Part shown: in pieces, positions 1,904-20,553 of the stretch
Position numbering within the stretch: the stretch's first letter is position 1
Layout: the number at the start of each line of letters is the position of its first letter
Source of the DNA: Desulfobacterales bacterium
Lineage (GTDB): Bacteria > Desulfobacterota > Desulfobacteria > Desulfobacterales > JARGFK01
Direction: 5' to 3'
DNA: 52,136 nucleotides
NCBI GenBank assembly: GCA_029211065.1
Contig: JARGFK010000021.1
Coordinates: 1-52,136 of the forward strand
Program-made: the position numbers and the translations under genes
The notes under the pieces: model-generated
What the model was told of the DNA's origin: nothing
Database searches by the model: none
Seen by the model: the letters and a program-made list of their open reading frames with translations, nothing else

Positions 1904-2842
1904 ATGACGCCACCGTTTTCTTTTTTCAAAACTTACGATGATCTGTCTATCCGTTATGCCGTCCGGCTGTGCCGGTCTGAACAAAAAGCGGGGAGCCTCA
2001 TTCTGCTGGGCGGGCGGCGGGAATTTATCGAAAAATATACCGAGACCATTGCCGAACTGAACGGGCGCAATTTTGACGTTTATGCCATGGACTGGCGCGG
2101 GCAGGGACTGTCCGGCCGTCAGCTGCCGAACCGGCATAAAGGCTACGTGCGTTCCTATGACGATTATCTGGAAGACCTGAACCGGTTTTTCAGAGAGGTA
2201 ATACAGCCCCGGGCGGTTTTACCCTGCATCATTCTGGCCCACTCCATGGGCGGACACATTGCGCTGCGGTATTTGCACGACCATCCGGATTGCGTCGCAA
2301 AAGCCATACTCACCGCACCCATGATTGATATTGCCTTGTCCCCCTTCAAAGTGCTCCTGATCCGGGTTTTCGCCCGGTTTGCCGTTTCCGCCGGCATGGA
2401 CAAGGCGTATGTCCAAGGCTCCGGGGATTATCGGGCAGTCGATCAGAATTTCAACGGCAACCGGCTCACATCCGATCCCCGGCGCTTTACGGACGAACAA
2501 AGAGCGATTCATGCAAACCCGGACCTGGCACTGGGCGGCGTGACCTACGGGTGGCTTAAGGCGACATTGGAATCCATCGATATCCTCAAGGGGACCGGAT
2601 ACCCGGAAGCGATTCGGACGCCGGTCCTGATTGTCGGCGCCGATTGCGACCGGGTTGTTTCCTTAAAATCCCAGGAACAGATTTGTGAGCGCCTGCCGTT
2701 CGGTCGTATCCGGATTATCCCCCAGGCCCGGCACGAAGTGTTAAAAGAAACCGATCAGGTCCGCGGCCTGTTCTGGCAGGCATTTGACCGGTTTGTTGAA
2801 ACGCAAAGGGAACCGTTAAAGCACCATGATGATATTGCTTGA
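1904..2842 (+). CDS. Alpha/beta hydrolase, monoacylglycerol lipase/lysophospholipase-like
   Basis: 312 residues, serine hydrolase of the PldB/monoacylglycerol-lipase group (hydrolase_4 / S33 type). Nucleophile elbow AHSMGG puts Ser at 114; the acid is probably Asp 249 (GADCDRVV) and the base His 277 (ARHEVLKE). The MDWRGQGLSGR segment at 62-72 is the typical strand before the oxyanion loop. No signal peptide, so cytoplasmic. The likely role is hydrolysis of lipid esters, perhaps in membrane lipid turnover; the substrate cannot be read from the sequence. It is monocistronic by orientation and spacing, with a poor ribosome-binding site at the ATG. Confidence 0.85.
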   Translation: MTPPFSFFKTYDDLSIRYAVRLCRSEQKAGSLILLGGRREFIEKYTETIAELNGRNFDVYAMDWRGQGLSGRQLPNRHKGYVRSYDDYLEDLNRFFREVIQPRAVLPCIILAHSMGGHIALRYLHDHPDCVAKAILTAPMIDIALSPFKVLLIRVFARFAVSAGMDKAYVQGSGDYRAVDQNFNGNRLTSDPRRFTDEQRAIHANPDLALGGVTYGWLKATLESIDILKGTGYPEAIRTPVLIVGADCDRVVSLKSQEQICERLPFGRIRIIPQARHEVLKETDQVRGLFWQAFDRFVETQREPLKHHDDIA

Positions 2843-2936
2843 TGTTGTATGCATTTTTGATTTATGCTTGTTACTCTTTAAACGATGATTGGAAACAACC
2901 CACTAAATTTTTCGATTTTTCTCTGGAGGTATACCC

Positions 2937-3596
2937 ATGAAATGGAAAGATTCAAACGACACCGTTGAGTTGGATGCCGAGACCGGTGATGACCCTAAAG
3001 ACGGCAAATCGTTTTCAATTAAAAAGGACAACGGTATTTACCATTCAGGTCAAAATTCTTTGCAGGGAAAGAAGATGCCGGTCATGCTTGTGGGCGGCGG
3101 GATCCTGATACTGGTGGTTTTGATAATCTGGCTGATTTACGGCTCCGGGGGGAATTCCAACGTTCAGCAGGTCAATTTGCTGGAGCCCAGAGTCAAAGCG
3201 CTGGAGGACAGGCTTTCAAGTCTTGAGCCCTTTGCCGGAGCGGCAAACATTGCGGCGCAGCAGGAGAAAACCATTGCAGAACTGACCAGAAGAATCGATG
3301 GCCTTGAAGCGGTATTCACGAAAGAGATTGATAGTCTATCGAAGCGGATGGCTACGGTAAAGCCCCAGAAGACGGCTGCGCCGCTGCCGGCTAAATCTCA
3401 ACCGGACCAGACAGCTCCGGGAACGGCTGATGCGCGCAAGGCAACTCACCATGTGGTTCAGGCGGGGGAAAATCTCTATCGGATCAGCCTGCGCTATAAT
3501 ATAAAATTGGATGAATTGCTCCGTCTGAACAACCTGAAACCCGGCGCGGCGATTCAACCCGGGCAAAAGTTGCTGGTGAGCCCCCAGAAGCCTTAG
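2937..3596 (+). CDS. Single-pass membrane protein with C-terminal LysM domain
   Basis: 219 residues. Order: charged cytoplasmic N-terminus (1-45), one membrane helix (about 48-68, rich in V/I/L/G), a predicted coiled coil with heptads (about 78-130), a Pro/Ala/Gln-rich linker and a LysM domain (about 172-216, HVVQAGENLYRISLRYN...LNNL...IQPGQKL). LysM binds N-acetylglucosamine in peptidoglycan, so the protein probably tethers the inner membrane to the cell wall with its C-terminus in the periplasm. GGAGG lies just before the ATG. The exact role is unknown. Confidence 0.85.
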   Translation: MKWKDSNDTVELDAETGDDPKDGKSFSIKKDNGIYHSGQNSLQGKKMPVMLVGGGILILVVLIIWLIYGSGGNSNVQQVNLLEPRVKALEDRLSSLEPFAGAANIAAQQEKTIAELTRRIDGLEAVFTKEIDSLSKRMATVKPQKTAAPLPAKSQPDQTAPGTADARKATHHVVQAGENLYRISLRYNIKLDELLRLNNLKPGAAIQPGQKLLVSPQKP

Positions 3597-3651
3597 CAGG
3601 CTGTTGCGTTTAAGTCGTTGCGGGATTTTCCTGGATAACCCTGAAGCAAAA

Positions 3652-4095
3652 TTAAAGCGAATCGTCGGTTTTGGTGACCCGGCGCCGCATCCCTTTTTTG
3701 GTCCCTTGGCGCCGTTTATGTTCCAGCCGGCGCTTTATCGAAGCCCGTGACGGTTTTGTTTTGCGGCGCCGTCTGGGTTTTTGGGCTGATTTAGAGACGA
3801 GATCCACCAGGCGCTGGACGGCATCCTGGCGGTTCTGGTCCTGGGAACGAAATCGCCGGGCGGTGATGACCAATACGCCGTCTGCGGTAATCCGCCTGTC
3901 CGGAAGCTGCAAGAGGCGTTCGCGAATGACATCGGGCAGTGACAATGAATTCTTAATGTCAAAACGCAATTGTACGGCCGTGGATGTTTTGTTTACATGC
4001 TGCCCGCCGGGTCCGGATGCCCGCATGAACTGAATCTGTATTTCATCCTCGCTGATTGTAATGTTGGGGGTGACCTTAATCATTTTTTGCATCAT
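3652..4095 (-). CDS. Alternative ribosome-rescue factor ArfB (YaeJ-like peptidyl-tRNA hydrolase)
   Basis: 147 residues. The RF1-type GGQ domain is at the N-terminus with the catalytic GGQ at 30-32 (ASGPGGQHVNKT). The C-terminal 35 residues are Lys/Arg-rich and would enter the empty mRNA channel, the hallmark of ArfB as opposed to a release factor. It frees peptides from ribosomes stalled on mRNA without a stop codon. A Met at residue 5 is an alternative start. It is convergent with the LysM gene and has its own transcription unit. Confidence 0.9.
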   Translation of the reverse strand: MMQKMIKVTPNITISEDEIQIQFMRASGPGGQHVNKTSTAVQLRFDIKNSLSLPDVIRERLLQLPDRRITADGVLVITARRFRSQDQNRQDAVQRLVDLVSKSAQKPRRRRKTKPSRASIKRRLEHKRRQGTKKGMRRRVTKTDDSL

Positions 4096-4342
4096 ACCGT
4101 TTTTGGGATGGGTTTGTCAAAACATGCGGTTGAAACCGAACCGCATTGTTAAAAACGACTATAGACTTGCATTCAGACAAGAACCGTAGTATTAATCAAG
4201 AAATCAAGAATTTGAACATTGTTTTTTTGGGAGTTATGCCGAACATATCTGATCCTGATATTCCTCACAGTATGCTGATGGCCGGTCCATCCATTCGCCG
4301 GCCATGCAGGGTGGCATTTTTCATCAGCAGGGGTGAGGCGTG

Positions 4343-5635
4343 ATGGATTACACATTCTGGATTGAACTTGTCCTGTTTGCCATTTTGATGGCACTCTCCG
4401 CGTTTTTTTCCAGTTCAGAGACCGCCCTTTTTTCCCTCAGCAGCGTCCAGTTGGAACAAATGCGTCGCAAGGGGCATCCCCGGGTCGGTCTGATCGAAGG
4501 GCTGCTGACCCGTCCGCGGCGACTGATCATGACCATTCTGATCGGAAATGAACTGGCCAATGTGGCTGCATCGGTCATTTCGGCAACCATCATTATCCGG
4601 TTGATGGGCGCCGGGAGCGAGTGGCTAAACCTGCTTGTGATGGTGCCGATCCTGCTGCTGGTGGGCGAGGTGACGCCAAAAACGCTGGCGATCCGCAATA
4701 ATATTGCCTTTGCCGCTTTTGAGTGCCGTCCCATTGAATTTTTCGCCCTGATCGTTAAGCCCCTGCGATGGATGATCCGGACGATTGCGGATGTATCCAT
4801 CACTTTCATTATCGGAAAAGAGCGCTCCCGCGGAAATATCGTTACGGAAGATATGGTGCGAGTCCTGGCCCACGATGCCGTCGGAGAGGGCGCTCTTGAC
4901 CGCACCGAGGCCCAGTTCATTGATCACATTTTTGACTTCGGCAACAAAACGCTTGAAGATGTGATGACGCCGCGGTCGGACATCTTCTTTCTGCCCCTCA
5001 AGAGCAGCATCTATGAAAAAGTTGAAGAACTGCGCCGAACGCGGCATACCAAGGTGCCCATTTACCGTGAGCACCGCGATAATATCGTGGGAATTTTATA
5101 TGCACGGGATCTGCTGGGTGCGGATCTTGAAAAATTGTCGGCGGAGTCGCAAGAATTCATTGACCTGTTGCGGGAACCGTATTTTGTGCCGGAATCCAAG
5201 CAGGCCGCCGAACTCTTTAATACGTTTCGCGAGCGCCGGATGTCATGCGCCTTGACGGTGGATGAATACGGCGGTGTGACCGGACTGGTCACCATGGAGG
5301 ATCTGCTGGAATGCATCTTCGGGGATATCCACAGCCCTTCGGATATCAGCCCGCATGAATATATCAAGGAACTCGAAAAGGGACGCTATCGCATCGACGG
5401 CGCTATGCCTATTTCGGATTTGAACGAGCGGATCAACAGCAATTTGGACGAGGAGTCGGCCGAAACCATCGGGGGGCTGCTGTTGAACGAATATGGAGAG
5501 CTGCCATCCGAGGGCACCGTTATCGTCATCAATAGCCTCAAGTTCAAGGTGGTGGAGGTGGAAGAAAACCGGGTCAAGGAATTGCATCTGGAATTAGAAG
5601 ATACGGAAACGGCCGTTTCCGAAACAAAAGAATAA
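4343..5635 (+). CDS. CNNM/CorC-type transporter-associated protein (DUF21-CBS-CorC), first copy
   Basis: 430 residues. The N-terminal DUF21 membrane domain (about 1-185) opens with AFFSSSETALFSLS, the signature of CNNM/CorC/HlyC-like Mg2+ efflux proteins. Two CBS domains follow (about 205-330, PRSDIFFLP and VDEYGGVTGLVTMEDLLE), then a C-terminal CorC_HlyC domain. Family members are linked to Mg2+ or Co2+ efflux and resistance. A GTG three bases upstream is possible, but this ATG is better placed after GAGG. Only 16 bases separate it from the second copy, so the two are probably co-transcribed and may form a heteromer. Confidence 0.88.
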   Translation: MDYTFWIELVLFAILMALSAFFSSSETALFSLSSVQLEQMRRKGHPRVGLIEGLLTRPRRLIMTILIGNELANVAASVISATIIIRLMGAGSEWLNLLVMVPILLLVGEVTPKTLAIRNNIAFAAFECRPIEFFALIVKPLRWMIRTIADVSITFIIGKERSRGNIVTEDMVRVLAHDAVGEGALDRTEAQFIDHIFDFGNKTLEDVMTPRSDIFFLPLKSSIYEKVEELRRTRHTKVPIYREHRDNIVGILYARDLLGADLEKLSAESQEFIDLLREPYFVPESKQAAELFNTFRERRMSCALTVDEYGGVTGLVTMEDLLECIFGDIHSPSDISPHEYIKELEKGRYRIDGAMPISDLNERINSNLDEESAETIGGLLLNEYGELPSEGTVIVINSLKFKVVEVEENRVKELHLELEDTETAVSETKE

Positions 5636-5651
5636 GGAAAAACGATAAACG

Positions 5652-6884
5652 ATGGACTGGGTTTGGACACTGATTACCATGCTGGTCTGTCTGCTGCTGG
5701 AAGGTTTTTTTTCCGGATCGGAAATTGCCCTGATCAGCGCCGATCAGATGAAACTGCGCCATGACGCCGCCAAAGGGTCCCGGGGCGCCCGGCTGGCCTT
5801 GAAGATGCTGAAGAAGCCCGAGTGGCTGCTTTCCACCACACTGGTGGGAACCAATGTCGCTGTGGTGGCGAATACAACCATGGCCACAGCACTGGCGATC
5901 TCCCTTTTCGGTGAACAAAACAGCTGGGTCGCCATTGTCGTGGCGGCACCCCTGATCTGGATATTCGGTGAAATTGTTCCCAAAAGTGTTTTTCAGCACC
6001 GCGCCGATACGCTTACCCCCCGGGTGGTGTTTTTTTTACGAATCGCCTCCTATGTTTTTTCCCCCATTTTGATCTTCTTCAGTATGCTGACACGTATCGG
6101 CAACCGCATTTTCGGCGGCCGGGGCCAGAATCCATTTACCTTGCGTGAAGAAATGATCACCATGCTGCAGATGCCGGCCAAAGACAGCGACATCCAGCAT
6201 GTGGAAAAGGACATGATCAACCGGATCTTCAGCTTTTCAGAGACAACCGCCGACTCCGTGATGCTGCCGCTCATTGATGTGGTTGCCATTGACCAGAAGG
6301 CCACCTGCGGGGAGGCGATACGGGTGGCGGCGGAGAACGCGCATGTACGCCTGCCGGTTTATGAGGATCGCGTGGATCGGGTTGTCGGCGTCCTGAACAC
6401 CCTGGAACTGCTGGGGGTGGACCCGGCCCAGTCCATTACGCCTTACATCCGGCCGGTGCGGTATGTGCCCGGATCAAAAAGCATCCGGGAACTGTTGCTG
6501 GACTTGCGCCAGGACGGTGATACGGTGGCCGTCGTGGTGGACGAATATGGCGGCGCCGAGGGGCTCGTTACCATAGAAGATGTCATGGAAGAAGTGGTTG
6601 AGGAAATGGAAGATGAATACGACTCTAAAGAAGGGTCGCAGCAATGGGTTCGAAAGGTGGCCGACCGGGATTATATTGTCAGCGCCCGTATCGAAATCGA
6701 CACCCTTGAGGAAAAGCTGCATATTGATATCCCCAAGGGAAAATATGTGACCCTGGCCGGGTTTCTGCTGGAGAGGGCACGGGAGGTTCCGCCGGTGGGA
6801 ACAGCCATCAAGGCCGACGGCATCACCTATACCATCCAGGAAGGTACGCCCCAGACGATTCAGGAGGTTCGGGTGCGCTGGTAG
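5652..6884 (+). CDS. CNNM/CorC-type transporter-associated protein, second copy
   Basis: 410 residues, paralogue of the preceding gene with the same order: DUF21 membrane domain (GFFSGSEIALISAD at the start), CBS pair (VDEYGGAEGLVTIEDVMEEVVEEMEDEYD) and CorC_HlyC domain. The two copies are clearly divergent, so this is an old duplication rather than a recent one. The acidic stretch after the second CBS domain (EEVVEEMEDEYDSKE) is typical and may sense Mg2+ or ATP. The operon ends at the terminator that follows. Confidence 0.88.
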   Translation: MDWVWTLITMLVCLLLEGFFSGSEIALISADQMKLRHDAAKGSRGARLALKMLKKPEWLLSTTLVGTNVAVVANTTMATALAISLFGEQNSWVAIVVAAPLIWIFGEIVPKSVFQHRADTLTPRVVFFLRIASYVFSPILIFFSMLTRIGNRIFGGRGQNPFTLREEMITMLQMPAKDSDIQHVEKDMINRIFSFSETTADSVMLPLIDVVAIDQKATCGEAIRVAAENAHVRLPVYEDRVDRVVGVLNTLELLGVDPAQSITPYIRPVRYVPGSKSIRELLLDLRQDGDTVAVVVDEYGGAEGLVTIEDVMEEVVEEMEDEYDSKEGSQQWVRKVADRDYIVSARIEIDTLEEKLHIDIPKGKYVTLAGFLLERAREVPPVGTAIKADGITYTIQEGTPQTIQEVRVRW

Positions 6885-14754: not shown

Positions 14755-15668
14755 TCAAACAAGTTTTTCCCCGGCGACTTCTTCCTGCCAGCAGACCACA
14801 GCCGTATGATCGGAGCCTTCCGGCAATGAGGATCGGGCGGCCGCCCACAGTTCCCGGCAGAGACTGCTGAACAGGGCGGGCGTACGGCTCTCCCGGGCCA
14901 TCTGGACGGCCGTACTCAGGTCTTTGAGCATGAGGTCCAGTGAAAACCCCGAATCGAACGAGCGCGACAGAATGAATTGCTTGAACTTATTCTCAGTACT
15001 GTTGTTGCGGCCGGTTGAGCTGTTCAGCACATCGATCATGACGGCGGGGTCGAGGTTAAAGCGGCGGCCGACAATCAGTGCTTCAGCCGCAGCAATCAAA
15101 CCGGCGGCTGAAACCAGATTGTTCAGCACCTTCATGGCATGGCCGGAGCCCAGTTGACCCGTTTGAAAAATCCGGTCTCCCATTGTCTGCAACAGCGGGC
15201 GGCAGCGGGTGATCTGGGTCTTTTGGCCGCCGGCCATGATTGCCAGCGTGCCGGATTTTGCCCGGCCCACGCCGCCTGAAACCGGCGCGTCGATCATGGC
15301 AATACCCTGTTTCGCCAGGATGCGGCCGAGGTCGCGGGTTCCGCTGGGGAAGAAGAACTCATGTCGATGAGCACCGCCTTCTGTGGCATCGATAATAGAA
15401 GCGACGGTGTTCCGCGACGGTCTTCTTCCAGAACCACCCGACGGACCGTATCGCCGTCGGGAAGCATGGTAATCACCGCCTGGTTGTTGCGGCCGGCTTC
15501 GCCGGCGTCGGCAGCCGGTCTGGCGTGATATTGCCTGCTGAACGATTTCAGTACCCGGGGATTCACATCAAATACCGTCAGGTTAAAACCCGCCTCAGCC
15601 AGCCGGGCGGCCATGGGACGCCCCATGTTCCCTAGTCCGATAAAACCGATATCCATCAACCGTTTCAT
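14755..15668 (-). pseudogene. Frameshifted NAD-binding beta-hydroxyacid dehydrogenase (3-hydroxyisobutyrate dehydrogenase-like)
   Basis: Two overlapping frames together make one normal-length enzyme. The first (15668-15294) has the Rossmann motif GFIGLGNMGRPMAARLAEAGF and ends ...VLIDMSSSSPAEPATS; the second (to 14755) resumes with MIDAPVSGGVGRAKSGTLAIMAGG and carries the helical dimer domain with GSGHAMKVLNN, holding the catalytic Lys. Adding one G near 15341-15343 restores a continuous frame (SSSPAGTRDLGRILAKQG). So it is either a recent frameshift or a sequencing error. It follows dadA by 4 bases and would reduce or oxidise a 3-hydroxy acid. Confidence 0.85.
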
Positions 15669-18593: not shown

Positions 18594-18630
18594 GGCCTCA
18601 TAATATTACCTATTTTTCAGGAGGAATTAC

Positions 18631-20553
18631 ATGGATTACAAGGACTGGCTGCAGGAGAATTGTCGCCAGAAGGTGGTCAGCGCTGCAAAGGCGGTTTCCA
18701 AGATCAAACGCGGCAGCCGCGTTTTTATCGGAACCGGTTGCGGAGAACCCCAGCACTTGATCCGGACCATGGTGGGAGACATGAACATGCAGGACATCAT
18801 GGTGTATCAGATGCTTTCTTCAACTTTGTCCAATTATATCGATCAGGAATCCTTTCATCGTCGCTTTTCGGTAAAGCTTTTTTTTATCAGCAACAGTATG
18901 CGCAAAGCCGCATTTGAAGGTAAAATTGACTATGTGCCGGCCTATCTTTCACAGATACCGCGTCTGTTTTCAAGCCATCGGATCGGCCTGGATGTGGCGC
19001 TGATCCAGGTCAGCCCGCCGGACAGGTTTGGTTACTGCAGCCTGGGCGTGTCAGTGGATATCACCCTTTCCGGTATGGAAAATGCCGGGATGGTTATTGC
19101 CCAGCTCAATCCTAAAATGCCGCGAACCTGGGGCGACAGCTTCGTACATGTGAACGAAATTGATTATCTGGTGGACCACGAGGAACCGCTGGTGGAATCG
19201 TTGCCGACCGTAAAGGACAATCTGGTAACCATGCGGATCGGTCATTTTGTCTCTCAACTCATTGATGACGGCGCCACCTTGCAGATCGGCTTCGGCAACC
19301 TGCCCAATGCCATTTTGCAATATCTTGACAAAAAGAAGGACCTGGGGATTCACACCCAGCTGGTTACCGACGGCATGGTGCCTCTGATCGAAAAGGGGGT
19401 AATCACCAACAAGAAAAAATCACTGCTTCCGGGAAGGATTGTGGCGTCTTTGTGCATGGGTTCGGAGGATCTGTACCGTTATGTTGATGACAATCCCATC
19501 TTTTATTTTCGATCATCTGAATTTGTAAATGATCCGCTTCAAATTGCGCGAAACGACAACCTCATATCCATCAGTTCGGCCCTCGAGGTCGATTTAACCG
19601 GGCAGGTCTGCTCGGATTCCATGGGATACCTGTTTTACAGCGGTATCGGCGACCAGGTCGATTTCCTGCGGGGCAGCGCCATGTCCAAGGGTGGTTTTTC
19701 CATCGTCGCGCTGCCGTCAACGGCTGACAACGGAAAGGTTTCCCGGATAGTTTCACACCTGAGCGAGGGCGCCGGCGTGGCCACCACCCGGGGGGACGTC
19801 AACTTTGTTATCACCGAATACGGTATTGCCGAACTGAAAGGTAAAACCATCTATCAACGCGTGGTGGAACTGGCCCAGATCGCGCATCCAAAATTTCGCC
19901 AGAAGCTGATTGATGTGGCTAAAAAACGCCATTATATATTCGGGGACCAGCTGCCGCCTTCGGAAGACGACCTCCTTTTTCTGGAGGCTTATAAAAGCAC
20001 GCTGGAATTAGAGAACGGAAAAACCGTTGAGTTCCGGCCGCCTTTTCCGTCGGACGAGTTTGCCTATCGAAACTTTTTTTATTCGCTCCAGGAAAAGACC
20101 ATTTATTACCGGTTTTTCTGCAAGATGAAAATATTTTCCCATGAGGTGGTTCAGAAACAATGGGCCAGTGTCGATTACCGTAAAAATATGACCATTATCG
20201 GTCTGATCCAAAAAGGCGGCTACAAGGAAATCGTTGCCATCGGTTCTTATGCCATGGAAGACGAAGACAGCGCCGAGGTTGCATTTGTGGTGCGGGAGGA
20301 TTTTCAAAAGATGGGAGTTGCTTCCTATTTGCTTGAAGTCCTGGAAAAAATCGCCAGAGAAAACAAATACAAGCGCTTCAGGGCAACGGTTTTGCGGGAG
20401 AATCAATCCATGCTGCACATATTCAAAAAGAGATATCCCCAGGCGAAATCATCCTCCGGCGGCGGGAACGAGGTGTTGATCACCATGAACTTTGAAGAAA
20501 AGAAAGATGAAGCCGATCCGGCCGGGAAGGGCAGCGGTACCGGCGTTTCATAG
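18631..20553 (+). CDS. Acetyl-CoA hydrolase/CoA-transferase fused to a C-terminal GNAT domain
   Basis: 640 residues. Residues 1-430 match the acetyl-CoA hydrolase / 4-hydroxybutyrate CoA-transferase family (IGTGCGEP, GFGNLPNAIL, RSSEFVNDPLQIARNDNLISISSALEVDLTGQV, GGFSIVALPSTA). Residues about 460-620 form a GNAT acetyltransferase domain with the acetyl-CoA loop VREDFQKMGVASYLLEVLE. In the place where the family has its catalytic Glu (IHTE), this protein has Gln 243 (LGIHTQLVTDG). That would prevent the covalent glutamyl-CoA step, so it may bind CoA esters as a sensor or feed the GNAT domain. The ribosome-binding site is excellent (AGGAGG, 6 bases). It is followed by rsmG after 17 bases. Confidence 0.9.
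   Translation: MDYKDWLQENCRQKVVSAAKAVSKIKRGSRVFIGTGCGEPQHLIRTMVGDMNMQDIMVYQMLSSTLSNYIDQESFHRRFSVKLFFISNSMRKAAFEGKIDYVPAYLSQIPRLFSSHRIGLDVALIQVSPPDRFGYCSLGVSVDITLSGMENAGMVIAQLNPKMPRTWGDSFVHVNEIDYLVDHEEPLVESLPTVKDNLVTMRIGHFVSQLIDDGATLQIGFGNLPNAILQYLDKKKDLGIHTQLVTDGMVPLIEKGVITNKKKSLLPGRIVASLCMGSEDLYRYVDDNPIFYFRSSEFVNDPLQIARNDNLISISSALEVDLTGQVCSDSMGYLFYSGIGDQVDFLRGSAMSKGGFSIVALPSTADNGKVSRIVSHLSEGAGVATTRGDVNFVITEYGIAELKGKTIYQRVVELAQIAHPKFRQKLIDVAKKRHYIFGDQLPPSEDDLLFLEAYKSTLELENGKTVEFRPPFPSDEFAYRNFFYSLQEKTIYYRFFCKMKIFSHEVVQKQWASVDYRKNMTIIGLIQKGGYKEIVAIGSYAMEDEDSAEVAFVVREDFQKMGVASYLLEVLEKIARENKYKRFRATVLRENQSMLHIFKKRYPQAKSSSGGGNEVLITMNFEEKKDEADPAGKGSGTGVS

Follow-up and report, generated by a model that had tools for sequence, protein, structure and literature searches.

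The closest described counterparts of the protein reported here are the type I and type II Pat acetyltransferases, whose GNAT domain is joined to an acyl-CoA synthetase domain that has lost catalysis, binds acetyl-CoA and is believed to act as a regulator of its partner (PMC8556138). The five-type scheme into which the bacterial GNAT acetyltransferases have been sorted contains no type with a CoA-transferase (PMC8556138), and our searches of the open-licence literature turned up no paper that describes CoA-transferase/GNAT fusions or the loss of their catalytic glutamate. As for the class I CoA-transferases themselves, replacing the catalytic Glu by Ala or Ser is known to kill the activity and replacing it by Asp yields a hydrolase (PMC12400318). 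In A. aceti AarC, the E294A variant is inactive and its crystals are fully closed both with CoA and with an acetyl-CoA analogue, and in the wild-type enzyme the carboxylate of Glu294 is proposed to hold the site open on free CoA; moreover, the amide of Gly388 forms the external oxyanion hole, and this glycine has been called strictly conserved across the superfamily (PMC4876117).

Post-translational control of acetyl-CoA metabolism in sulfate reducers and related anaerobes has been little studied. Herein we describe a fusion protein encoded in a stretch of 52,136 nucleotides from a Desulfobacterales bacterium (contig JARGFK010000021.1; this whole stretch is called the window below), in which a class I CoA-transferase domain changed at two catalytic positions is joined to a GNAT domain of the Pat type.

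Architecture of the fusion protein

The features of the gene and its product are collected in Table 1. The ribosome-binding site ends 6 bases ahead of the ATG, and both the length and the domain order of the 640-residue protein are unchanged in its relatives. Pfam assigns AcetylCoA_hydro (PF02550) to residues 5-188, AcetylCoA_hyd_C (PF13336) to 277-428 and GNAT to 521-600, and solved relatives match the CoA-transferase domain with E 5e-114. In an AlphaFold2 model built with 95 sequences (mean pLDDT 89.4, pTM 0.86), the predicted N-terminal part superposes on 2OAS with a VIA Z of 54.2 (rmsd 1.5, 425 residues aligned) and on 3GK7 with a VIA Z of 51.4; the two-domain fold and the family profile of the class I CoA-transferase superfamily are both present. 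Against the butyryl-CoA:acetate CoA-transferase profile TIGR03948 the fusion scores 251.9 bits, far below the NCBIfam equivalog cut-off of 674.8.

Table 1. Features of the fusion gene and its product, with positions in the window
Feature	Position	Strand	Basis
AGGAGG ribosome-binding site	18619..18624	+	direct sequence reading
Gene for the CoA-transferase/GNAT fusion protein, 640 aa	18631..20553	+	ORF, ATG start
Class I CoA-transferase domain with a degenerate catalytic site as judged from sequence, residues 5-436	18643..19938	+	Pfam; solved relatives; VIA
GFGNLP glycine motif, residues 220-225, retained	19288..19305	+	alignment
Gln243 (CAG) at the catalytic Glu position	19357..19359	+	aligned to 3GK7 Glu238 and AarC Glu294
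Asn300, corresponding to internal oxyanion-hole Asn347 of AarC, retained	19528..19530	+	mapping, conservation
Asp341 (GAC) replacing the external oxyanion-hole Gly (AarC Gly388)	19651..19653	+	mapping to AarC
GNAT acetyltransferase domain, Pat type, residues 454-621	19990..20493	+	VIA, phmmer
Glu549 in the AEVAF stretch, at the position of the catalytic-base Glu proposed for Pat GNATs	20275..20277	+	alignment
GNAT motif A QKMGVA, acetyl-CoA pyrophosphate loop, residues 559-564	20305..20322	+	sequence, conservation

To place the protein among its relatives, 58 of them were collected by scanning genome contigs and others from 395 sampled genomes of the phylum, and 149 ORFs of relatives were aligned. 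Two clades matter for what follows. Clade 1, the clade of the window, comprises 87 loci at about 57% identity and above, a count in which a few species drawn from two collections are entered twice and 2 loci do not cover residue 243. Clade 2 is a second clade without the catalytic glutamate, with 42 distinct loci counted as 43, as a gene from the window's own genome was entered both as L002 and as L152; this gene is a paralogue on contig C78 (L002/L225). In the order to which the window belongs, 62 of the 96 sampled genomes carry the fusion protein, and one genome (G161) has three copies of the Glu-less fusion (L068, L113, L114). When plasmids were searched for relatives in other phyla, the matches were confined to the CoA-transferase part and none of them spanned 80% of the query.

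For the GNAT part, residues 450-621 of the model resemble the GNAT domain of S. lividans Pat (SlPat, 4U5Y) with a VIA Z of 25.1 (165 residues aligned at rmsd 1.5), E. coli PatZ (9IT0) with 23.2 and M. tuberculosis Rv0998 (4AVC) with 20.1; all three are protein lysine acetyltransferases, and in sequence as in fold they are its best solved relatives. The phmmer alignment brings the proposed catalytic-base glutamate of SlPat (4NXY) and of mycobacterial Pat onto Glu549, and a glutamate stands there in 75 of 82 clade 1 proteins and in 43/43 of clade 2; basal members of clade 1 (L079-L085) have Met instead (AMLAF). Motif A of the GNAT proteins is defined as Q-x-x-G-x-G/A (PMC8556138), and QKMGVA conforms to the Q/R-x-x-G-x-G/A loop which, together with the GNAT fold, marks the Pat type. 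Taken from sequence and model, the GNAT domain probably belongs with the protein lysine acetyltransferases, a lysine acceptor being predicted.

Two catalytic positions are changed together

The first-pass annotation had claimed that a CAG codon puts Gln243 where the family has its catalytic glutamate, known as Glu238 in 4-hydroxybutyrate CoA-transferase, and both points proved correct. In the numbering of the 3GK7 sequence the residue is Glu238; the column of residue 243, set by phmmer alignment to 9VAG, 3EH7, 2OAS, 3D3U and 3GK7, holds Glu in all five of these closest solved 4-hydroxybutyrate CoA-transferases; and Glu294 of AarC aligns with the Gln of the fusion, whose context is LGIHTQLVTDG. 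By the same alignment, to the five solved relatives and AarC, some other residue as the true catalytic glutamate is ruled out, and the fusion thus has Gln243 in place of the Glu that forms the glutamyl-CoA thioester in class I CoA-transferases. Not one of the 85 clade 1 loci that cover the site has Glu, since 79 have Gln, 5 have His and 1 has Pro (codons CAG 73, CAA 6, CAT 5, CCC 1), and Gln stands at 243 in all 27 of 27 additional loci from the same order as the window, which rules out a sequencing or assembly error as well as an oddity of one genome. From the published glutamate mutants, Gln243 is expected to end transfer and to leave a site still able to close on acyl-CoA; the CoA-transferase domain would then have lost CoA transfer and retained binding.

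The second change concerns the oxyanion hole. In the family motif YSGIGGQxDF the second Gly of GG is position 341, and it is Gly in all Glu-type fusions (those with Glu243) and in 38/38 unfused relatives; in clade 1 it is Asp in 87/87 loci, and the external oxyanion-hole glycine, Gly388 of AarC, is hence missing from the fusion. Asp341 and an intact carboxylate at 243 were never seen together among the relatives examined, fused or unfused. Judged by these two tested features, the glutamate and the external oxyanion-hole glycine, the fusion does not qualify as an active class I CoA-transferase.

Most of what surrounds the two positions has stayed. The carboxamide of the internal oxyanion hole is present (residue 300 is N in 75/87 and S in 12/87 of clade 1), residue 221, in the glycine motif, maps to AarC Val270, and the mean retention in clade 1 is 0.91 for the 77 positions of the CoA-transferase domain that Glu-type fusions conserve. 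The initial claim that the surrounding CoA-binding motifs are intact is thus right for most of them and wrong for residue 341. The mean pairwise identity within clade 1 is 0.74 for the CoA-transferase domain versus 0.63 for the GNAT domain, and the former is the higher in every group. Since this constraint exceeds that on the GNAT domain within clade 1, the CoA-transferase domain appears to be in use, and a decaying pseudo-domain is disfavoured. As read from the alignments, two catalytic elements of clade 1 have changed together, at 243 and 341, while the scaffold has been preserved along with the greater part of the site.

Distribution and separate losses of the glutamate

A check proposed along with the first-pass annotation was whether the glutamate is lost throughout the GNAT-fused clade, and when run it gave a negative answer: outside the two Glu-less clades, 55 GNAT fusions keep Glu243, all with Gly341, and 14 have Asp243 with Gly341, which rules out a loss across the whole fused family. 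The Asp243 fusions are L104, L122, L125, L127, L132, L143, L186-L190 and L200, and separately L118 and L199; from the published Glu-to-Asp mutants, they are predicted to be natural acyl-CoA hydrolases tethered to a GNAT domain.

In a tree built without columns 243 and 341, clade 1 branches from within the Glu-type fusions, with a sister (L086/L088) that keeps both Glu and Gly, so the direction of change in clade 1 was from Glu to Gln. Clade 2 has 38 Gln, 2 Pro, 2 Leu and 1 Gly at 243, and mostly Gly at 341 but with altered surrounding glycines; its root is not fixed in the tree, and its polarity is taken from the solved distant relatives, which have Glu. Holding clades 1 and 2 together is rejected by an AU test (p = 0.0026), for a group that was named after seeing the tree and with a quick tree search, and one single loss for all Glu-less fusions is rejected within the same limits. 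On sequence grounds, the simplest reading is that Glu was lost twice separately among the GNAT fusions.

Nor is the loss confined to GNAT fusions, since 10 of the 38 unfused CoA-transferase relatives in the phylum have no Glu at 243 (28 Glu, 9 Gly, 1 Ala). The unfused Glu-less homologues (L266, L268-L271, L275, L276, and the more divergent L272-L274) have Gly or Ala there, and their branch shows the motif HSGMxSDG and keeps Gly341.

Gene neighbourhoods and genome context

Around the clade 1 genes, rsmG lies downstream in 23 loci (17 bases downstream in the window), an elongation-factor-like GTPase and an Smr-type gene, both named by sequence reading, lie upstream, and an AMP-forming ligase is found within 2.5 kb in 10/87 loci; as far as gene content can be read, this neighbourhood is uninformative and gives no functional lead. 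In L079-L085 an AMP-forming ligase is often downstream. Elsewhere in the window, two overlapping ORFs on the minus strand (14755-15297 and 15294-15668) together appear to make up one hydroxyisobutyrate-dehydrogenase-type protein split by a change of frame, possibly through a frameshift or an assembly error.

The surroundings of clade 2 are of another kind. An acetyl-CoA synthetase gene (acs) is directly downstream in 10 loci from at least three families, RACo, the corrinoid-protein activator, follows in 9-10 loci, and acetyl-CoA synthetase or CODH/ACS-related neighbours occur in nearly half of the loci, whereas among the 69 Glu- and Asp-type fusions Acs is a neighbour in one and RACo in none (Fisher p 3e-4 for Acs and 3e-5 for RACo, with no correction for relatedness and with the gene from the window's own genome entered twice). 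For example, the Glu-less paralogue in the window's own genome (L225:176-2053) is followed by a RACo-like activator (2140-4101) and by the CODH/ACS delta subunit CdhD (4468-6057).

Reversible lysine acetylation is plausible in this organism, whose genome has genes for an Acs bearing the Pat target motif PKTRSGK (locus L207), for two sirtuins and three HDAC-type deacetylases, and also for a type I Pat of the ordinary kind (L227, 875 aa). Moreover, a RACo-like protein, a sirtuin, a CBS-pair protein, an AcuC-like HDAC-type deacetylase and a CooC-like ATPase are clustered at L224:1881-9073; the gene content of this cluster suggests an acuBC-type deacetylation module adjoining genes for CODH/ACS maturation.

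Possible functions of the degenerate domain

With catalytic residues lost in at least two separate lineages, it is suggested that the dead enzyme domain serves as a built-in gauge of acetyl-CoA-type fuel. Our preferred reading, to which we give a probability of about 0.58, is that the fusion acts as a lysine acetyltransferase of the Pat type, in which a dead CoA-transferase domain closes on acyl-CoA and thereby gates the activity. The dead domain would bind acetyl-CoA or another short acyl-CoA and shut around it without reaction, the closure would be transmitted to the GNAT domain, and the acetylation of metabolic enzymes would then track the acyl-CoA level, with AMP-forming acyl-CoA synthetases as the best candidate targets. 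We only infer the acyl-CoA sensing, the direction of its effect and the targets, the sensing coming from the AarC-E294A structures, and the substrates of the GNAT domain cannot be told from its sequence.

A sensor of acetyl-CoA level had been proposed in the first-pass annotation, and the proposal survives in part. In its favour stand the missing nucleophile, the preservation of the fold and of most conserved residues, the Pat type of the GNAT domain and the precedent set by Pat itself; it needs correcting in that the oxyanion-hole glycine is lost as well, the loss marks two subclades only and unfused Glu-less homologues exist. Fusion alone does not imply sensing, because the fusion predates the loss and the Glu-type fusions are presumably active transferases. 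Nor need one mechanism cover both clades, given D341 in clade 1 versus mostly G341 in clade 2. Besides the unfused homologues, we count the uninformative clade 1 surroundings and the Met of L079-L085 against the preferred reading.

Another possibility is that the CoA-transferase domain has no ligand role and acts as a structural or oligomerisation scaffold, or as a docking surface for targets. CoA-transferases are oligomeric, which counts for such a role. In PatZ and SePat, too, oligomerisation depends on the N-terminal domain (PMC8556138). However, the CoA-site residues are nearly as conserved as in the Glu-type fusions, which is not required of a pure scaffold, and we regard this explanation as unlikely.

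The strongest catalytic rival is that Asp341, adjacent to the acyl group at the former place of the oxyanion-hole Gly, took over from Glu243 as nucleophile or general base, so that the domain would still be a transferase or a hydrolase, coupled to the GNAT domain. In fact Asp341 is invariant while 243 tolerates Q, H and P, which is the pattern to be expected of a working residue, and D341 is seen as well in some members of clade 2 that lack Q (L185, L196, L198); since Glu-to-Asp mutants are hydrolases, a carboxylate near the thioester can suffice for hydrolysis (PMC12400318). On the other hand, the glycine it replaces supplies the strictly conserved external oxyanion-hole amide, and its replacement should harm that very site (PMC4876117), and in most of clade 2 no Asp was gained when Glu was lost, so the fusion can persist with no carboxylate; we therefore hold a relocated carboxylate to be rather improbable.

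It is quite improbable, moreover, that the GNAT domain modifies a small molecule in place of a protein, with the dead domain as its substrate-binding or regulatory part: the acceptor is not defined by GNAT sequence alone and the basal members do without the Pat glutamate, but the best solved relatives by both sequence and fold are protein lysine acetyltransferases. Finally, that Gln243 is a pro-nucleophile, turned by CoA attack or deamidation into a glutamyl thioester or Glu in an otherwise normal transferase, is hardly credible even though Gln far outnumbers every other replacement in clade 1 (79/85) and in clade 2 (38/43), as His and Pro in clade 1 and Leu, Pro and Gly in clade 2 are not convertible in that way, the accompanying G341D is left unexplained and no literature support was found.

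Comparison with known systems

The described enzymes nearest to the N-terminal domain are the 4-hydroxybutyrate/butyryl-CoA:acetate CoA-transferases (class I, AbfT/Cat1 type; 3GK7, 2OAS, RipA), which have the fold and most conserved positions in common with the fusion; it differs from them by Gln for Glu, by Asp for the oxyanion-hole Gly and by the added GNAT domain. The Glu-type GNAT fusions of the same phylum share the two-domain architecture at 40-54% identity, and differ in having Glu243 and Gly341 in all 55, by which they are presumably active transferases. The type III GNATs (Rv0998/MsPat, AAPatA, MxKat) likewise carry a small-molecule-responsive N-terminal domain before a Pat-type GNAT (PMC8556138), but their cAMP-, ACT- and NADP-binding domains are unrelated to the CoA-transferase domain.

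The likeness is greatest to the type I/II proteins (S. enterica Pat, E. coli PatZ, S. lividans PatA), where a GNAT domain, the one most similar to that of the fusion, is joined to a large acyl-CoA enzyme domain deprived of its catalytic residue: they lost the His of an NDP-forming acyl-CoA synthetase, and the fusion lost the Glu of a CoA-transferase. In contrast to them, its putative regulatory domain has the unrelated class I CoA-transferase fold and about 440 residues versus about 700; with such a second domain the fusion is not a type I/II member, although it may work alike. We give about an even chance to the wider reading that it represents an undescribed type of bacterial lysine acetyltransferase, with a dead class I CoA-transferase as sensor, which would have evolved at least twice in GNAT fusions, once with an oxyanion-hole Asp (clade 1) and once beside acetyl-CoA synthetase and CODH/ACS genes (clade 2), and would be convergent with Pat. 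The two linked substitutions offer a direct route to ask whether the loss of catalysis makes a sensor. More generally, the family suggests that nature has repeatedly built sensors for lysine acetylation by disabling an acyl-CoA enzyme and then tethering it to a GNAT domain, an acyl-CoA synthetase in Pat and a CoA-transferase in the fusion.
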